NCBI RefSeq assembly: GCF_024707485.1
Contig: NZ_CP102602.1
Coordinates: 1,302,001 to 1,366,000 of the forward strand
DNA from: Thermococcus thermotolerans
Lineage (GTDB): Archaea > Methanobacteriota_B > Thermococci > Thermococcales > Thermococcaceae
DNA length: 64,000 nt
Direction of reading: 5' to 3'
Shown here: one piece after another, positions 4,408 to 18,278 of the stretch
Layout of the letters: each line of letters opens with the position of its first letter
Position numbering within the stretch: the stretch's first letter is position 1
Program-made: the position numbers and the translations under genes
The notes under the pieces: model-generated
The model's database searches: none
What the model saw: the letters and a program-made list of their open reading frames with translations, nothing else
Told to the model about the DNA's origin: nothing

Positions 4408-7400
4408 AGAAACGGCGGGCATTTCTAATGAACTCAACGGCCATACTCCTGCTGATACCCCTCATGCTTCTCCTAGCCACGTATGAGGACGTTTCATCCC
4501 AGATAATAATGAGTCAGAGCGAGAGAACCCAGGTTGAGAGAACGTACAGGGTGGTATCGTACGTTGAGATGGACTTCCAGAGAACCCTTGAGATATCCGG
4601 AAAGAGGGCGATAGTTACCGTTGTAGACTACATTGCAAACACTCGGGACTTTCTGGATCCAAACGACCCGGACGGTATGGCGAACGCCACTATACGCGAC
4701 CTGGTTTTGTTCGGCCAGTCACCCCAAGTCGCGAGTAACTATTCCGAAAGGCTGATGAGAGATCAAACCGTCTTAGGCTGGCTCGGAAACATGTCCACCG
4801 AACTTAGAAGACAGGGCTATGAGCTGAAGATAGCGAACAGAACCATTGCCGAAATCGAGGCTATGAGCGTATCCCAGAGGAGCAGTTTTCTCAGAAGCAA
4901 CATAGAACTAACCGTTGCCCCCCTTGACGCGTTCAGGATCGTTATACGCGCCAGAATAAAGGACGTGACGATTTCAGACGTCTCGGGCAAGGTTGTCTAT
5001 ACCGGCCCAATACCGAGGGAGAACTACGTTTACTCAATAATCTCAATCGAAAACCTTGAGGACCCCATATTCTCGGCACTCACCTACGGCAGGTACTACC
5101 GCTCAATTGAACCCTGTGAGTACACTTTCCCCGAACTCATGGATAGGCCCGTTAGAACACTCTACGGGAACGGCACCAGCACCAGTGACCATGTACTCGG
5201 CAAGTATTCCTCCACAGCCTGGGACACCGGACACATATTCTACGGCAACTCCTACCCAGGAGATGGTGCTGATGGATACGTGCTCCGCAGCGGGGACATA
5301 GCCGGCGTTACCGCCCCGATAATCGTCAATACCACAATAAACGGCGTCCCCATCTCCCCGCTTGAGATCTTCAGCGACGATGACGTGGGAGTCCTCGTGT
5401 TCGGCAATGTTAGTGCGACTAACCACTGGTGCGGATCCAACTACAAGTGGAGGGTCAACATTACGATACCCAGCTACGCCGACGGAAGCCTTGTGCTCCT
5501 AAAAATACCGGCCTCAATATTCCCCGGCATATATCACACCGATGGAACTGCCTCAATGATGATCTATGAAAAGTCCAGCATCGCGTGCACTCCGGTGCCC
5601 TTCTGGATAGAGTACTGGGGAACCTCCTACGTCTGGATATGGATAAGGGCCAGCGGTACTGACTACTCGATTTACTTTACAGACAACCCGTCCTATGCCA
5701 CCGATGGATATAACAAGGAATACCTATTCTGGCTCATCGACACGTTCGACGGCACATCAATAAATCCCGTCCTGTGGAACAACCTAGCCGACGCGTATCT
5801 TGACGGGAGCGGCCATCTCGTCGTTCCAGGCGGAACTGAAAAACTCGCCCTCCAGACGGTCAATGCAATAGACGGTCCATTTTTTGTGAGGTTCAGGATG
5901 AAGCCGGACAGCACCGCTCTGGACTTTGATGGAGGCGTTGAGACGGAGTTTAACTATACGGAAACCCAGGCTTTAGGAAATTATCTCAAGGTCATCATAA
6001 GCTACGATGGACCGGAGCTCATAGACCCGACAAACGTCCAGGTGCCAATACGTCTCAGCGCCGCAAATATAAGCGGCATAAACTCCGACCCCGCAACGAA
6101 CAGAGCGGAGATACTTACATACTCCGACCCGCTCCTCCAGAACAGGATACCCTTCTGGATAGAATACTGGGACACGAACGGCGCTCAGATATGGGTAAAG
6201 ACTAACCTCACGTACATCGGAAGAACCTGGAGCAACGGATGGGTGTACCATTATAACGCCACAGTTTACATTAAATACAACACGGGCACACTCACCAGGG
6301 GAGACGGGAACCAGGTCTTCGAGTTCTTCGATGACTTCACAGGTACAACTTTGGATACAGGGAAGTGGGACACCCATGGAAATCCAGCCGTAAACAACGG
6401 CTATCTCCTGCTTCCGAGCAGGAGCTGGATATGGTCAAAGGCAACTTTCCCGAGCACATACATAATGGACATTAGAGGAAAGCTTGTCGACAACCCCGGA
6501 ATAATGTGGAACATCCGCAGGAGCACGGGATGGGGTCGCATTGAGGACATCAACTACTACGGCGATGGAAGGGGGTATCTGTGGTGGTTCAACGTCCTGA
6601 CGAGCAACTGGATTGGATGGTATGACTCTAGTACGACGGAGTACACACTAAACTCATTCCAGAACATAGAACTGAGAGTAACACCATTCTGGACCGACAT
6701 ATACCAGTTCTCAGACTGGACCAACAAGGTTCTAAGGAGCTCGTACAACGCTGGGGCTAGTAGCAACCGTGCCATAGGTTTGGAGCAGTGGAATGGAGGC
6801 CCCAGCGAATACGACTGGATATTCGTCCGCAAGTACCTGGAGGACGAGTACCTGAGCTACACCATAACGCAAGCCGGAGGCACCCAAACAACGACAGAGA
6901 CGGAGAGAGTACAGTTCATCGACGACAATCCAGGATTCAGCGACCACAATGGGGACACGCTGGCCATACTCGAAAACTGGGAAAACAGCTTGGTGTCAGA
7001 CAACCCCACGACACTGTCTGACTACCGCAGGTACCAGATTGTATTTACGCCTGTTTCCGGAGGAGTAGATCTTGAGTTCACGGACGTTGACAACCCGCTA
7101 AGAAGCACCACCGTGAGAATAAACAAAGAGCCCGTATCACCTACAAAAGTGGGCATCGTGATAGACAGCCAGCCCCAGGGCACCCTCATTAATACCGCAT
7201 ACTTCGATTGGATAGTTATAGGCAGGATGCCCTACTATACAACCGACTCCATAAGCTCCACCACCGTTGAATCGGCACCCCAGACAAGCAGTGCATACAA
7301 TGCCCGTGCCTACGACCTGCAACCGCTGATATCATGTATAGTAGATCAGAAGTACTTTGGGACGTATAATGGAATATCGTTCTTTGAGCGCCTTGAAAAC

Positions 7401-7778
7401 AGTGTGACCAACCATGCTAAATACTTCCAGCTGGCAAAGGAGATGCAGGACGAGCTGGGAATGAAATATGGAGGCGAATACTATCCCATCGGGCTCGTCA
7501 GCTTTATGGTGCCCAATGCTGACTACGACCGTAAGCTCTTTGATATATTCAACAACTTTGGAATAACAGTAGAAGACGGACAAAGTAGCGTGGATTACTA
7601 CTTCCTCAACTATTACTTCGGAAGGATGGACAAGACGCCAGCCTATCGTGTCTGGGGCATATCCTACGGTACGAGCGCTCTCACAGGGGATTTGAGCGTT
7701 GTGCCATTCTTCCTCGACAATCAAACGGCAGCGGCCATACTTGGACCAACCGGAGCAGAAGACCTGCTGAAGAGGTGA
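4404..7778 (+). CDS. Giant surface protein with two DUF2341/lectin-like modules
   Basis: This is an 1124-residue protein. It starts MKKRRAFLMNSTAILLLIPLM, a basic N-terminus and single hydrophobic helix like the upstream pseudopilins. Two repeats starting near residues 342 and 525 match the DUF2341 pattern (VPIRLSAANI, followed by IPFWIEYWDT and hydrophobic IWVK). Each is followed by a concanavalin-like stretch (FFDDFTGTTLDTGKW near residue 640). DUF2341 modules occur in secreted archaeal and bacterial proteins and are thought to bind carbohydrate. This is the largest product of the operon and may be the adhesin. The next ATG lies just after its TGA, and the preceding GAGGTGA serves as ribosome site. 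Confidence 0.7.
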   Translation: MKKRRAFLMNSTAILLLIPLMLLLATYEDVSSQIIMSQSERTQVERTYRVVSYVEMDFQRTLEISGKRAIVTVVDYIANTRDFLDPNDPDGMANATIRDLVLFGQSPQVASNYSERLMRDQTVLGWLGNMSTELRRQGYELKIANRTIAEIEAMSVSQRSSFLRSNIELTVAPLDAFRIVIRARIKDVTISDVSGKVVYTGPIPRENYVYSIISIENLEDPIFSALTYGRYYRSIEPCEYTFPELMDRPVRTLYGNGTSTSDHVLGKYSSTAWDTGHIFYGNSYPGDGADGYVLRSGDIAGVTAPIIVNTTINGVPISPLEIFSDDDVGVLVFGNVSATNHWCGSNYKWRVNITIPSYADGSLVLLKIPASIFPGIYHTDGTASMMIYEKSSIACTPVPFWIEYWGTSYVWIWIRASGTDYSIYFTDNPSYATDGYNKEYLFWLIDTFDGTSINPVLWNNLADAYLDGSGHLVVPGGTEKLALQTVNAIDGPFFVRFRMKPDSTALDFDGGVETEFNYTETQALGNYLKVIISYDGPELIDPTNVQVPIRLSAANISGINSDPATNRAEILTYSDPLLQNRIPFWIEYWDTNGAQIWVKTNLTYIGRTWSNGWVYHYNATVYIKYNTGTLTRGDGNQVFEFFDDFTGTTLDTGKWDTHGNPAVNNGYLLLPSRSWIWSKATFPSTYIMDIRGKLVDNPGIMWNIRRSTGWGRIEDINYYGDGRGYLWWFNVLTSNWIGWYDSSTTEYTLNSFQNIELRVTPFWTDIYQFSDWTNKVLRSSYNAGASSNRAIGLEQWNGGPSEYDWIFVRKYLEDEYLSYTITQAGGTQTTTETERVQFIDDNPGFSDHNGDTLAILENWENSLVSDNPTTLSDYRRYQIVFTPVSGGVDLEFTDVDNPLRSTTVRINKEPVSPTKVGIVIDSQPQGTLINTAYFDWIVIGRMPYYTTDSISSTTVESAPQTSSAYNARAYDLQPLISCIVDQKYFGTYNGISFFERLENSVTNHAKYFQLAKEMQDELGMKYGGEYYPIGLVSFMVPNADYDRKLFDIFNNFGITVEDGQSSVDYYFLNYYFGRMDKTPAYRVWGISYGTSALTGDLSVVPFFLDNQTAAAILGPTGAEDLLKR

Positions 7779-7782
7779 AATC

Positions 7783-8529
7783 ATGTCGGTGGAAGACATC
7801 CTCTACAGAATCGGTGAGTCCGTGGATTCAGGGATCAGAGAACTCATGGATTTCATAAATCCCTCCCCCTCAGAGGAGCCGCCAAGCTTTAGATATCTCA
7901 GCAGACTCGTGAAGAAGAGGTTCACTGCCCATGAATACCTCAGCCTCAAGCTCCAGCTGGCCTTTCTCAGCTATCTTATTCTCAATCTAATCCTGCTCTT
8001 CATCAAGGCCAGCCCACTGTGGCTCGTGGGCGTGGCGGTGGTTTACTTCCTCTATCTCCGCTACACATTGGTTAGGAACCGGGAGTTCTTTGTGGAGTAT
8101 GAACCCTACAGGTTCTTTTACTACGCAATATCTCTTATTTCCCTCGCTGTTTTCCTGGGATACCTCGTGATACGGAAGATAGCCACGAGCATCTACTATT
8201 ACTACGCATACCTGCTGGTGGCCTTTGCCATCGTGATGGCATTCAGATGGTACTTCAAGCAGAGATACGGAAGGGACTATACCTACGGCATCGTTGAGGA
8301 GATCAAGGGCGATGCCGTCAGGGTCTTTGTTCACGACGACATAGCGGCGAACGTCAAGCCCGGCCACTACTGGGTCGATGCCGTGGAAGACCTGGAAGTT
8401 GGCAGGGTGGTGAAGCTCATCGTGGAGGACAGGAAGCTCAAGGGGGCGGTTCCGGTAAGGATAATAGAGGTCTATCTCACGGATCAGTCCTCCCAGAGCT
8501 CGACAGAGCCGAAGGAAGAAACCGAATGA
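7783..8529 (+). CDS. DUF2101 family membrane protein
   Basis: This is a 248-residue protein with an N-terminal cytoplasmic part (about 1-65) and hydrophobic segments near 68-90, 92-110, 122-140 and 147-163. A soluble C-terminal beta domain (about 175-230) contains DYTYGIVEEIKGD. The size and layout agree with the DUF2101 family of Euryarchaea, whose function is not known. It closes the pilus-like operon, starting 5 bp after the previous stop with GAGGTGA overlapping that stop. A platform or assembly role in the membrane would fit but is inference. Its last 46 bp overlap a minus-strand gene. Confidence 0.65.
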   Translation: MSVEDILYRIGESVDSGIRELMDFINPSPSEEPPSFRYLSRLVKKRFTAHEYLSLKLQLAFLSYLILNLILLFIKASPLWLVGVAVVYFLYLRYTLVRNREFFVEYEPYRFFYYAISLISLAVFLGYLVIRKIATSIYYYYAYLLVAFAIVMAFRWYFKQRYGRDYTYGIVEEIKGDAVRVFVHDDIAANVKPGHYWVDAVEDLEVGRVVKLIVEDRKLKGAVPVRIIEVYLTDQSSQSSTEPKEETE

Positions 8530-15277: not shown

Positions 15278-15299
15278 TTTTAACATAAATTTGTCAAGA
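15278..15299. promoter_or_regulatory. Purine dyad upstream of purS
   Basis: TTTTAACAT-N4-TTGTCAAGA, one copy of the dyad TTTTnnCAT-N4-ATGnnAAAA found before the other pur operons. It lies just upstream of the purS TATA (CTTAAAAAC on the minus strand, about 15264-15272), a position typical of an activator. A partial second right half (ATGTAAAAA) lies nearer the gene at 15249-15257. Confidence 0.5.
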
Positions 15300-15401
15300 A
15301 TACGTCAGCTCCAGCGCGAGCCTTACGGAATCCTCCGAGACGACTCTCATTACCCCCTTGTCCCCCATGAGGAGAACGACATCTGTATGAAGCGTCTTCA
15401 T
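15294..15401 (-). other. Possible 35-residue gene remnant
   Basis: An in-frame stretch MKTLHTDVVLLMGDKGVMRV continues to LALELTYS and a TGA at 15294. It reads like the C-terminus of a real protein but has no good ribosome site, and its end runs into the purS dyad. It lies at the edge of the low-GC island, so it may be what remains of an older gene. I cannot assign a family. Confidence 0.2.
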
Positions 15402-15497
15402 GAAGACCCAACTTCCTCTCGGTCTCATAGAAGATAAAGAAGAGAAAGCTTGATACATCTGAACAAAAAAGCAAAGATGAGAAGGAGTACTTATTTT

Positions 15498-16658
15498 TTA
15501 GGAATGTTTGATCGCCATCATTAAGAATAAGCTCGCAAAGAGCGCAAGGATTCCAGATACAACATAAGCGCCTCCAAGGCCAAAGATATCAGCAATGAGC
15601 CCAACTGCAATGTTGGCAAGCATTGAGAACATACCTCCTATCGTGCTAAGTGCGGATGTAACGGTAGAGCGGATTGGAGAGGGTATAAGCTCATTTCTGA
15701 ACGTTATCATGGCGGGTGCTCTAATGGCTATTATTATCTCAAAGAGAGTTATGAGTGCGAGGAGGGATAAGAGGCCCTTAACAATGCCCATTGCGATTAT
15801 CAGAAGACCCATCAACGGCGTTGTGATTGCTAAAATTTTCCTGTGGTCCATGAACCTAGAGAGCCTGAGAGATACGAATCCCCCGAAAGACGTTGAAAGT
15901 ATCAGCAGGGGATAAACGTAACCTATACTGCTTTCCCTGAGTCCGGCTTCCTTTGCAAGAACCATCCAGAACATGAAGAACGAGCGACCTGCGAACGACA
16001 GGAAGAAACTCGCAACGAGAAGATAGTGGAGGGTCCTTTCCCGGGCTATATGTTTCAATCCATCCTTAAGGATTTCTCCGTAAGGTTTTGCCTTTCCGTG
16101 GCCATAGTTTTCCTCAAGGAAGAGGAGTGCCAACAGGGAAGCGCTTATCCCACAGATGCCGGCCAAGAGTATGGGAAGGTTAAGGGCATAGCGTGAGATG
16201 GTTCCAGCAACAAAGCCAGCTACTGTCCCTAAAATACCGTTTATAATCCTCATGCGGCTGAAGACCATGTGAGCCCTCTTTTTATCGCCTTTAATGGCAT
16301 CATAGAGCCAGGGAGTGAGCGTTCCGCTCATAAAGGCACTTCCAATACCAGCCAGAGCAAATGCCAGGGCTATTATAAAAAAGCTGCTCGAACAGGCGAT
16401 TATGATAAGAGAGACTCCAAATAGCAAGATACCAACCGCGTAGTTAAGCCTTCGCCCGTACCTGTCAGCCAGACCTCCCGTCGGGAAGTCCGTTATGAAT
16501 GTAAGGAGAGATGAAACCGACTGAAAAAAGCCGATTTGAGCAAATGAGATTCCCAAACTCCTAAGCCAGATTGTGAGGTACGGGCCCATTAAGTGAGTCA
16601 TCCACGCCCCTAAGGAGGATACGAGTATGTATCCCTTTTCTGGTGAAATCTTTTTCAC
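15498..16658 (-). CDS. MFS transporter of the radical SAM island
   Basis: This is a 386-residue polytopic protein with about twelve hydrophobic segments and the MFS motif-A type loop GGLADRYGRR (about residues 57-66 of this start). I chose GTG 16658 (MKKISPEKGYI): GGGGGGAG lies 5 bp before it, and the long upstream ORF start at 16727 would fall inside the preceding peptide gene. It is the last gene of the order peptide B, radical SAM enzyme, peptide A, MFS. The place suggests export of a modified peptide. A drug or metabolite exporter unrelated to the peptides is the alternative. Confidence 0.75.
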   Translation of the reverse strand: MKKISPEKGYILVSSLGAWMTHLMGPYLTIWLRSLGISFAQIGFFQSVSSLLTFITDFPTGGLADRYGRRLNYAVGILLFGVSLIIIACSSSFFIIALAFALAGIGSAFMSGTLTPWLYDAIKGDKKRAHMVFSRMRIINGILGTVAGFVAGTISRYALNLPILLAGICGISASLLALLFLEENYGHGKAKPYGEILKDGLKHIARERTLHYLLVASFFLSFAGRSFFMFWMVLAKEAGLRESSIGYVYPLLILSTSFGGFVSLRLSRFMDHRKILAITTPLMGLLIIAMGIVKGLLSLLALITLFEIIIAIRAPAMITFRNELIPSPIRSTVTSALSTIGGMFSMLANIAVGLIADIFGLGGAYVVSGILALFASLFLMMAIKHS

Positions 16659-16717
16659 TGGTTCTCCCCCCATTTCTTGATATCCTGCCCAGAGACAAAG
16701 AGGAAAAAGATAAAGAT

Positions 16718-16843
16718 TTATATCCATTCGTCGATGTCCTCGTCACACCCACCTCCGTTGCATTTTGTATTCACTTCAACTTCTAGTCCATCAATATCTA
16801 AAACCAGCCCTTTGATTGTTTTCTTCTTTATCTGCCCTAGCAA
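16718..16843 (-). CDS. Candidate RiPP precursor peptide A (41 aa)
   Basis: A TTG-started frame of 41 residues has a strong ribosome site, GAGGTGAT, 4 bp before the TTG; a stop codon directly before the TTG rules out a longer form. It begins MLGQIKKKTIKG, continues LVLDIDGLEVEVNTK, and ends with a Cys/Gly/Asp-rich tail holding Cys28 and Cys33. It aligns with peptide B on the other side of the radical SAM gene (L-x-L-x-I-D, then V-E-V/I-N-T-K-x-N-G, then Cys). Short length, two homologous copies, a leader-like first half and a radical SAM/SPASM neighbour 30 bp away are the hallmarks of a RiPP precursor. No expression evidence is available. Confidence 0.6.
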   Translation of the reverse strand: MLGQIKKKTIKGLVLDIDGLEVEVNTKCNGGGCDEDIDEWI

Positions 16844-16873
16844 CTAAATCACCTCGTAGTAAAGGGATCTATA

Positions 16874-17905
16874 TCATTCCATACGGCCCCACACTAACCT
16901 ACTAATGTGTACGTCGTGGAATACTTTTTCTTTCCCAAGCAACATACAGTACAACAAATCTGGATTCTTGAAGTTTTTGTACAATGAATATATTCTGCCA
17001 GCACATGGCTCACACACTTCTTTGAATTTACACACGTTACACTTGGCGGTTCCATACTTCTGGTAATGGAGAAGTTCTGAATCCCCGTTCATCCAGGATA
17101 CGTATATATCCCTCAAACTTTCGACATAAATATTTCCTAATGAGTGGTGGTGTGTCGACCTAAAATAGTGACACGGATAAACTGTGCCATCAAAATTTAT
17201 GGCAAGCTGATGAATTAGTGCAGTACAAGTATAATTTGAGTCAGGGTTTGTAGAATCGATATTAAACTGATCTTTGAGTTTGTGTATTTTTAGCATGCTC
17301 CTAATCTCGTCTAATTTTTCATCTGGAAAACAAACATTATTCTTTTTTGCTTCACCAACTAGGGAAGGGATAGTTAACAGAAGCTTTGAAACGCCTATTG
17401 ACTTCAAAAATGAAGCATATTCTTGAATATTGTCAATTATGTCTTTTGTTAGTTGAGTATTAACAGTAACCCTAATACCAGCATCTACAAGGAGTTTTAT
17501 CCCAGATATTGTTCTTTCAAAGGTTCCTTTACCTCTAATTTTTTCGTGCATCTCTTTTAGTCCTTCAAGACTAACTTGAACTCCATTTATGTTGCACTCT
17601 TTCAAAACACTTACTATGTCTTCGTTCAATGTCGTTGCATTGGTAAATATTGTTATCTTAAACTCTAATTTGTTAGCAAGATTAAGAATTTCTGGAAATT
17701 TTGGATGGAGGGTAGGCTCTCCTCCAGTCAACGTTACATGATGTGCGCCAAGATCCCTAGCATCTGTGAGGACTTCTTCAATTTTCCCAAAAGGCAATGT
17801 AATCTTTGCGTTTTTCAAGTCTTCCAGATAGCAATGTTTACATTTTAAATTACATGACGATGTTATTGAGATGTCAACACTCCGTAGACCTAACCTCGCC
17901 TCCAT
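16874..17905 (-). CDS. Radical SAM/SPASM peptide-maturase-like enzyme
   Basis: This is a 343-residue protein. The SAM-binding [4Fe-4S] motif CNLKCKHC gives Cys18, Cys22 and Cys25, and GGEPT at 61-65 binds SAM. The C-terminal SPASM region has Cys227, 245, 289, 292, 298, 301 and 320 (GTVYPC, then CNVCKFKEVCEPC), enough for two auxiliary clusters. SPASM enzymes mostly modify peptides or proteins (PqqE, AlbA, anSME). I chose ATG 17905 because GGGGGGAG lies 4 bp upstream. Homologous small peptides flank it on both sides and an MFS gene follows. The DNA is clearly more AT-rich than the pur genes around it. No RRE domain is seen in the enzyme. Confidence 0.88.
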   Translation of the reverse strand: MEARLGLRSVDISITSSCNLKCKHCYLEDLKNAKITLPFGKIEEVLTDARDLGAHHVTLTGGEPTLHPKFPEILNLANKLEFKITIFTNATTLNEDIVSVLKECNINGVQVSLEGLKEMHEKIRGKGTFERTISGIKLLVDAGIRVTVNTQLTKDIIDNIQEYASFLKSIGVSKLLLTIPSLVGEAKKNNVCFPDEKLDEIRSMLKIHKLKDQFNIDSTNPDSNYTCTALIHQLAINFDGTVYPCHYFRSTHHHSLGNIYVESLRDIYVSWMNGDSELLHYQKYGTAKCNVCKFKEVCEPCAGRIYSLYKNFKNPDLLYCMLLGKEKVFHDVHISRLVWGRME

Positions 17906-17953
17906 CAAACTCCCCCCACGTTTATTCCAAATAGATTAAAAATATAATAAAAA

Positions 17954-18070
17954 TCAAAACATCAGATCTTTGCAGTATCCCTCATCTCCATTAACTTTTG
18001 TGTTTATTTCAACGTCGAACTCCTCATCAATCTCTAAAGCTAAAATCTTAGTTTTTTGTTTGTTCTCCAC
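17954..18070 (-). CDS. Candidate RiPP precursor peptide B (38 aa)
   Basis: The frame starts at GTG 18070 (MENKQKTKIL), with GGGGGTGG 5 bp upstream; in-frame GTGs at 18079 and 18085 are possible longer starts. It continues ALEIDEEFDVEINTKVNG and ends with one cysteine (Cys33) in GYCKDLMF. The core I-D-(x)-V-E-I-N-T-K-x-N-G matches peptide A, so the two are paralogues with different tails. The stop lies 48 bp before the radical SAM gene, making this the first gene of the cassette. I read it as a second substrate of the same enzyme. Confidence 0.58.
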   Translation of the reverse strand: MENKQKTKILALEIDEEFDVEINTKVNGDEGYCKDLMF

Positions 18071-18278
18071 TTTCTCCACCCCCACTTTCTTTGCCTCATC
18101 GTTATCTCGGCATGTTATCCTAAGTACGTAGTATTATTTAAGTATTTTGTAAACTTAAGGTTTGTGATTTAAAGTTATTAAATTTCTAAAAAAAAAAGTA
18201 ATCCATAAAAAGCTCCTTTTCACAAATTCGGAATTTTTAAACAAATAAAATTTTAAGAAGTAATCAAGAGATTGTAAA
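18071..18278. promoter_or_regulatory. AT-rich promoter/terminator segment between purP2 and the peptide cassette
   Basis: No gene is supported here. On the minus strand the run of eleven T residues at about 18189-18199, just past purP2, fits an archaeal oligo-T terminator. Farther on, CTTAAATAAT at about 18133-18142 could be the TATA box of the cassette. No copy of the purine dyad is present, so the cassette is probably outside that regulon. Confidence 0.4.

Follow-up and report, generated by a model that had tools for sequence, protein, structure and literature searches.

What do four closely spaced genes that interrupt a purine gene cluster of Thermococcus make together, and how did they come to lie there? 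They occupy part of a 64,000-nucleotide stretch (G000:C1:1302001-1366000; the window) of a 2.07-Mb genome, and the initial annotation had read them as a unit in which a radical SAM/SPASM enzyme matures two tiny peptides and an MFS protein exports the product. We consider it likely that the locus is a compact RiPP-type cassette, with pep1 and pep2 matured by the SPASM enzyme and transport provided by the MFS protein, and that it has spread recently among Thermococcus species. Most likely the kind is a known one and the precursor family is new.

Two homologous peptides around one enzyme gene

The four genes are ordered pep1, radical SAM/SPASM gene, pep2 and MFS gene (Table 1), separated by gaps of 48, 30 and 59 bp. 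This agrees with the positions, strand and order first proposed for them and with gaps then put at about 30–60 bp. An SD-like sequence lies upstream of all four genes, as had been claimed for the two peptides; that of pep2 comprises 8 bases. A longer, 43-residue reading of pep1 begins at a GTG at 18085, a codon that is TTG in both other genomes carrying the cassette, and the MFS gene could instead start at an ATG at 16727, where it would overlap the end of pep2. The transcript probably starts in the AT-rich spacer between purP2 and pep1. The probable TATA-like element there was read by eye and aligned in the three genomes, where a TTAAAT core is kept although the spacers are only 74–91% identical. 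A sigma-70 promoter scan is not meaningful for an archaeon. The block is AT-rich, as noted earlier, with a GC content of 0.34–0.47 compared with 0.53 for the whole window and 0.56 for the adjoining pur genes. No protease or immunity gene is present within the four-gene unit, which counts against a RiPP cassette.

Table 1 Features of the cassette and its immediate surroundings, in window coordinates
Feature	Position	Strand	Description
pep1	17954-18070	-	38 aa; candidate precursor; starts with GTG; SD-like GGGGGTGGAG
Radical SAM/SPASM enzyme	16874-17905	-	343 aa; CNLKCKHC, GGE, seven SPASM Cys; SD-like GGGGGGAG
pep2	16718-16843	-	41 aa; candidate precursor, paralogous to pep1; starts with TTG; SD GAGGTGAT
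MFS transporter	15498-16658	-	386 aa; possible pump for export or self-protection; Pfam MFS_1 1.4e-29; SD-like GGGGGGAG
TIGR00725-family remnant	15294-15458	-	Decayed, internally deleted; reads as a 54-aa ORF
Shared block	15306-18084	-	98.5% DNA identity across three genomes; flanks 72-81%
AT-rich spacer, purP2 to pep1	18084-18278	-	Probable TATA-like element AAAATACTTAAATAATA at about 18,150-18,130

The two peptides resemble each other beyond chance and, judged by their sequences, are paralogues. Their local alignment has a BLOSUM62 score of 55, which none of 20,000 shuffles reached and against which the next best among the 835 small ORFs of the window scores 29–30; the homology proposed for them thus holds. 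About 31 residues of pep1 (VENKQKTKILALEIDEEFDVEINTKVNGDEGYCKDLMF) and pep2 align, with 16 invariant columns, and both share LxLxID, VE(V/I)NTKxNG, a glycine and a cysteine. The N-terminal two thirds are alike and the tails (GDEGYCKDLMF in pep1, NGGGCDEDIDEWI in pep2) diverge, each with cysteine and acidic residues and with an aromatic or acidic end (...YCKDLMF and ...DEWI); each peptide has one or two cysteines. A conserved front followed by a divergent tail is the leader/core pattern expected of RiPP precursors, and the predicted peptides combine such a front and a variable, modifiable tail with a position next to the enzyme gene. That paralogous peptides directly flank the enzyme gene, each with its own ribosome site, counts in favour of a RiPP cassette.

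Neither peptide matches a described family, in keeping with their having been called undescribed. The wider search that had been suggested, extended over 61 genomes of the genus, 115 of the phylum and plasmids, found relatives of pep1 and pep2 in only three Thermococcus genomes (G000, G022 and G068), and a motif scan of fetched loci, including those of 80 enzyme relatives, found nothing convincing outside these three. This lack of relatives elsewhere weighs against a RiPP cassette. From the chosen starts, both peptides are identical in the three genomes, with one synonymous change each, and both frames are intact in all three. The refuting condition set at first, frames broken wherever the enzyme gene occurs, was thus not seen, although this is a weak test for copies that are about 98.5% identical. 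Because the block is near-identical, the three copies amount to one observation and not to independent conservation of the peptides; the synonymous-only changes agree with coding and carry little weight. A predicted structure of pep2 (pLDDT 53) was unusable and was discarded.

A SPASM enzyme outside the curated families

The enzyme is intact, with every motif cysteine that the first reading had listed. The radical SAM motif (C18-x3-C22-x2-C25) is accompanied by the SPASM cysteines C227-x12-G-x4-C245, C289-x2-C292-x5-C298-x2-C301 and C320, and in 45 homologues most of these positions hardly vary; CxxxCxxC together with SPASM cysteines is what a radical SAM/SPASM-dependent RiPP cassette should contain. 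Pfam matches are Radical_SAM (3.5e-30) and SPASM (1.7e-7). No NCBIfam cut-off was approached, the best score being 124 of 625 bits for StsB; PapB (NF047865) scores 96.2 of 340, SkfB 89 of 300 and AlbA 85 of 850. Many of the best NCBIfam matches are peptide maturases, and AhbD scores similarly. The nearest PDB entry by sequence is SkfB (1e-18). An AlphaFold2 model (mean pLDDT 82, pTM 0.84) best matches the peptide maturases CteB (entry 5why, which we take to be CteB), SuiB and SkfB, with TM scores of about 0.7, and also resembles anSME, PqqE and BlsE. The resemblance to peptide maturases in family scores, sequence and fold speaks for a RiPP cassette. The similar matches to AhbD and BlsE, SPASM proteins with non-peptide roles, count against a RiPP cassette. 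In G068 the enzyme gene carries an in-frame 15-bp insertion that leaves the frame intact. A viperin or anti-phage role was rejected: the PADLOC matches reflect the radical SAM core common to both, and the SPASM cysteines favour a peptide maturase.

In the model, the core strand begins at residue 9 and the protein opens directly with the SAM-binding core, so that a fused RRE-type N-terminal domain is, by prediction, absent. A majority of RiPP clusters have an RRE domain, according to one study (PMC7470986). Such a domain, fused or nearby, is common without being strictly defining; none was found here, and the absence of a fused one weighs against the RiPP assignment. Pfam PqqD has no match in G022 or G068 and one in G000, distant and unlinked; leader recognition therefore probably needs no PqqD of that type, although divergent RREs could escape a search that uses only the PqqD model. 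The G000 match is a PqqD-like protein of 111 residues (L206:5078-5413); in the sequence read around its gene, neither a radical SAM gene nor a peptide gene adjoins it.

The sactipeptide and ranthipeptide systems of CteB, PapB and SkfB are the nearest in fold and sequence, and like the present locus they place a full-cysteine SPASM enzyme beside a cysteine-containing precursor. By contrast, the Thermococcus enzyme is far below the family cut-offs, including those of StsB, SkfB and AlbA, and has no fused RRE, and its cassette has two paralogous precursors around one enzyme, few cysteines per peptide and no ABC exporter. Assignment to the ranthipeptide PapB type finds neither the score nor the repeated CX3D motifs, pep1 having CKD and pep2 CDEDID. 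The streptide system also pairs a short precursor (SuiA) with a SPASM enzyme, and SuiB is the second-best fold match, but pep1 and pep2 lack the KxxxW motif of streptide-type precursors and the enzyme lacks the N-terminal extension of SuiB.

One possible alternative is that the tails are crosslinked or trimmed and that proteases then release a redox or signalling compound, making the peptides the source of a cofactor or small molecule like PQQ or mycofactocin. The resemblance of the model to PqqE (TM 0.64–0.69), the short tails with aromatic or acidic ends and the lack of a dedicated ABC- or peptidase-type exporter would all suit such a product. We nevertheless think this improbable: a patchy distribution (3 of 61 genomes) and recent transfer are ill-suited to a core cofactor, no dehydrogenase-like partner lies nearby, and two divergent precursors with a late cysteine fit a crosslinked peptide better.

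Transporters and other peptide loci of the genus

The MFS protein plausibly exports the product, by analogy with other loci. Its closest relatives, 42–46% identical, are in other Thermococcus, with a methyltransferase-like neighbour at most loci examined and no radical SAM gene within the approximately 4 kb read per locus; that none of them was seen beside a SPASM gene there counts against a RiPP cassette. MFS genes at 27–30% identity directly follow SPASM genes in G021, G007 and G029. In two of these species, G021 and G007, nearly identical 26-residue peptides, M(K/R)(R/K)KLKI(K/R)KL(T/S)NAGCYHWNSHDSVGL (L141:5488-5568 and L142:4611-4691), are each followed by a SPASM enzyme and an MFS gene. 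These loci share with the cassette the genus, the peptide–SPASM–MFS order and an MFS protein homologous at about 30%; they differ in having a single, unrelated peptide and an enzyme of about 430 residues with an N-terminal extension.

More generally, SPASM genes in other Thermococcus genomes are preceded by different tiny cysteine-containing peptides, and at several of these loci an ABC or MFS transporter gene comes next; none of the peptides tested has an NCBIfam match. By analogy, these loci support the general cassette plan independently of pep1 and pep2. A family of 42–45 residues, MDP(K/H)YVV...C.(L/I)C..DGP(I/V)PDFEG.G.YGLFGLF, precedes SPASM enzymes at L145:6054-6182, L209:4725-4853 and L149:5166-5303, with ABC-type genes downstream in L149 and probably in L145. 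A very cysteine-rich peptide of 70 residues (CDGDCGTDCICNGLCICDGLCVCH; L030:2151-2363) precedes a SPASM gene (L030:2407-3831) whose product scores 353 bits against the CefB family, for which the cut-off is 600. Further tiny cysteine-containing peptides lie beside SPASM genes at L025:4967-5107 and about 5115-5261, L147:5431-5562, L148:6667-6780, L142:9044-9139 and L022:7539-7634, the last in G022, itself a carrier of the purP2–purS cassette. The closest relative of the enzyme outside the three genomes in a whole-genome search, in G048, is 34% identical; a divergently oriented, cysteine-rich ORF of 47 residues (GGGCGYCTVQYYACWPKYC; L024:1442-1585) lies near it. In G030, a SPASM gene (L023:6252-7455) is split into two overlapping frames and is probably a frameshifted pseudogene.

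These loci bear on a second alternative, in which the small ORFs encode short regulators or a toxin–antitoxin-like pair unrelated to the enzyme, and the enzyme and MFS protein act on another substrate. As pep1 precedes the enzyme gene and pep2 the MFS gene, both might serve as regulatory or leader ORFs for the gene that follows, and the confinement of the peptides to three genomes would be in keeping with this. Such a role appears decidedly improbable, given that two homologous peptides, alike in a conserved cysteine and different in their tails, flank an enzyme resembling peptide maturases, and that comparable tiny cysteine peptides precede SPASM genes elsewhere in the genus.

Probable recent transfer or replacement at the purP2–purS junction

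Among the 61 genomes of the genus, searched with the peptides and the MFS protein, the cassette occurs in three, always between purP2 and purS. These two genes are only 13 bp apart in most other genomes in which they are adjacent, confirming that the purine cluster is interrupted here. Likelihood segmentation of all three genome pairs places the limits of the shared block at 18,084–18,108 and 15,296–15,306; within them, pairwise identity is 98.47–98.58% over about 2.8 kb, compared with 79–81% in purP2 and 72–77% in purS–purQ. A block of this identity within such diverged flanks is good evidence for recent transfer or for replacement by recombination, and it supports the arrival by transfer that had been suspected from, among other signs, the AT-rich DNA and the interrupted purine cluster. 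Because the flanks of all three genomes differ from one another, a single event does not suffice and two or more must have taken place. Contamination as the source of the block was ruled out by each genome's own diverged flanks.

The block also holds the remnant of a TIGR00725-family gene, which is not a working part of the cassette. An intact 168-residue gene of this family occupies the purP2–purS junction in G036, G071, G080 and G081; the family name comes from the copy in G081, and those in G036 and G080 were seen as matches and open frames. In G068 the gene is broken although it has almost its full length, and in G000 and G022 it has lost an internal part. The decaying gene that separates the cassette from purS was also located in L143, at about 7425-8010. 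In one reading, these lineages may have carried the insertion for a long time, and recombination has lately replaced its body; in a second, a discrete unit was inserted repeatedly at one site. No clear terminal repeats were seen at the block ends. Phage DNA gave no match, viral contigs only four weak relatives of the enzyme, and plasmids only enzyme matches below 60% identity.

That the small ORFs are spurious and non-functional within a decaying insertion, as the AT-rich DNA and the adjoining TIGR00725 remnant in the same block might suggest, is scarcely credible when pep1 and pep2 align far above chance, pep2 has a long SD, and the enzyme and MFS genes are intact in three species, the latter with 11–13 synonymous and 3–6 non-synonymous differences.

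Taken as a RiPP cassette, the locus would be expressed as a single transcript carrying pep1, the SPASM maturase, pep2 and the MFS gene, with both peptides translated; we infer that both are substrates of the enzyme. The shared N-terminal two thirds (KxLxLxID...VE(V/I)NTKxNG) would serve as the recognition region, bound directly by the enzyme without a fused RRE. The enzyme would cleave SAM and crosslink the divergent tails, which are acidic and contain cysteine, by radical chemistry; the most plausible link is a thioether that joins the conserved cysteine to a nearby Asp or Glu or another carbon. PapB joins Cys to Asp or Glu and tolerates Cys-Xn-Asp with n = 0–6 (PMC9413430); because the CKD and CDEDID tails suit an enzyme with this tolerance, we tentatively favour a Cys-to-Asp/Glu thioether, at somewhat under even chances, and a sactionine, epimerization or a C–C link are possible products. 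Trimming of the products may fall to proteases of the host, and their export, or protection of the producer, probably to the MFS protein. Recombination at the purP2–purS junction would then have spread the cassette among Thermococcus species.

Archaeal RiPP clusters with radical SAM enzymes have been reported in general terms, and few archaeal RiPP products have been identified (PMC12144867); the main text of that paper does not mention Thermococcus. Our literature search, its broader part judged by leading titles only, found no RiPP product from Thermococcales and no paper combining Thermococcus with RiPPs, radical SAM enzymes and archaea. At the level of sequence, the new aspects of the cassette are its precursor family, an RRE-less enzyme outside the curated families and the signature of recent replacement. 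That it represents a new archaeal RiPP class, in which an RRE-less SPASM enzyme recognizes two paralogous precursors by their shared motif and forms a novel crosslink, encoded by a discrete, transferable unit with near-fixed ends that independently and recently replaced DNA at a purine-operon site in at least two species, seems unlikely.

That species otherwise so divergent carry a nearly identical block suggests that the cassette was recently under selection. Thermococcus species can be cultured and, in some cases, genetically modified. With its four genes and two matched candidate substrates, the cassette thus offers a practical test case for peptide crosslinking in hyperthermophiles and for how a leader is recognized when no RRE is fused to the enzyme.
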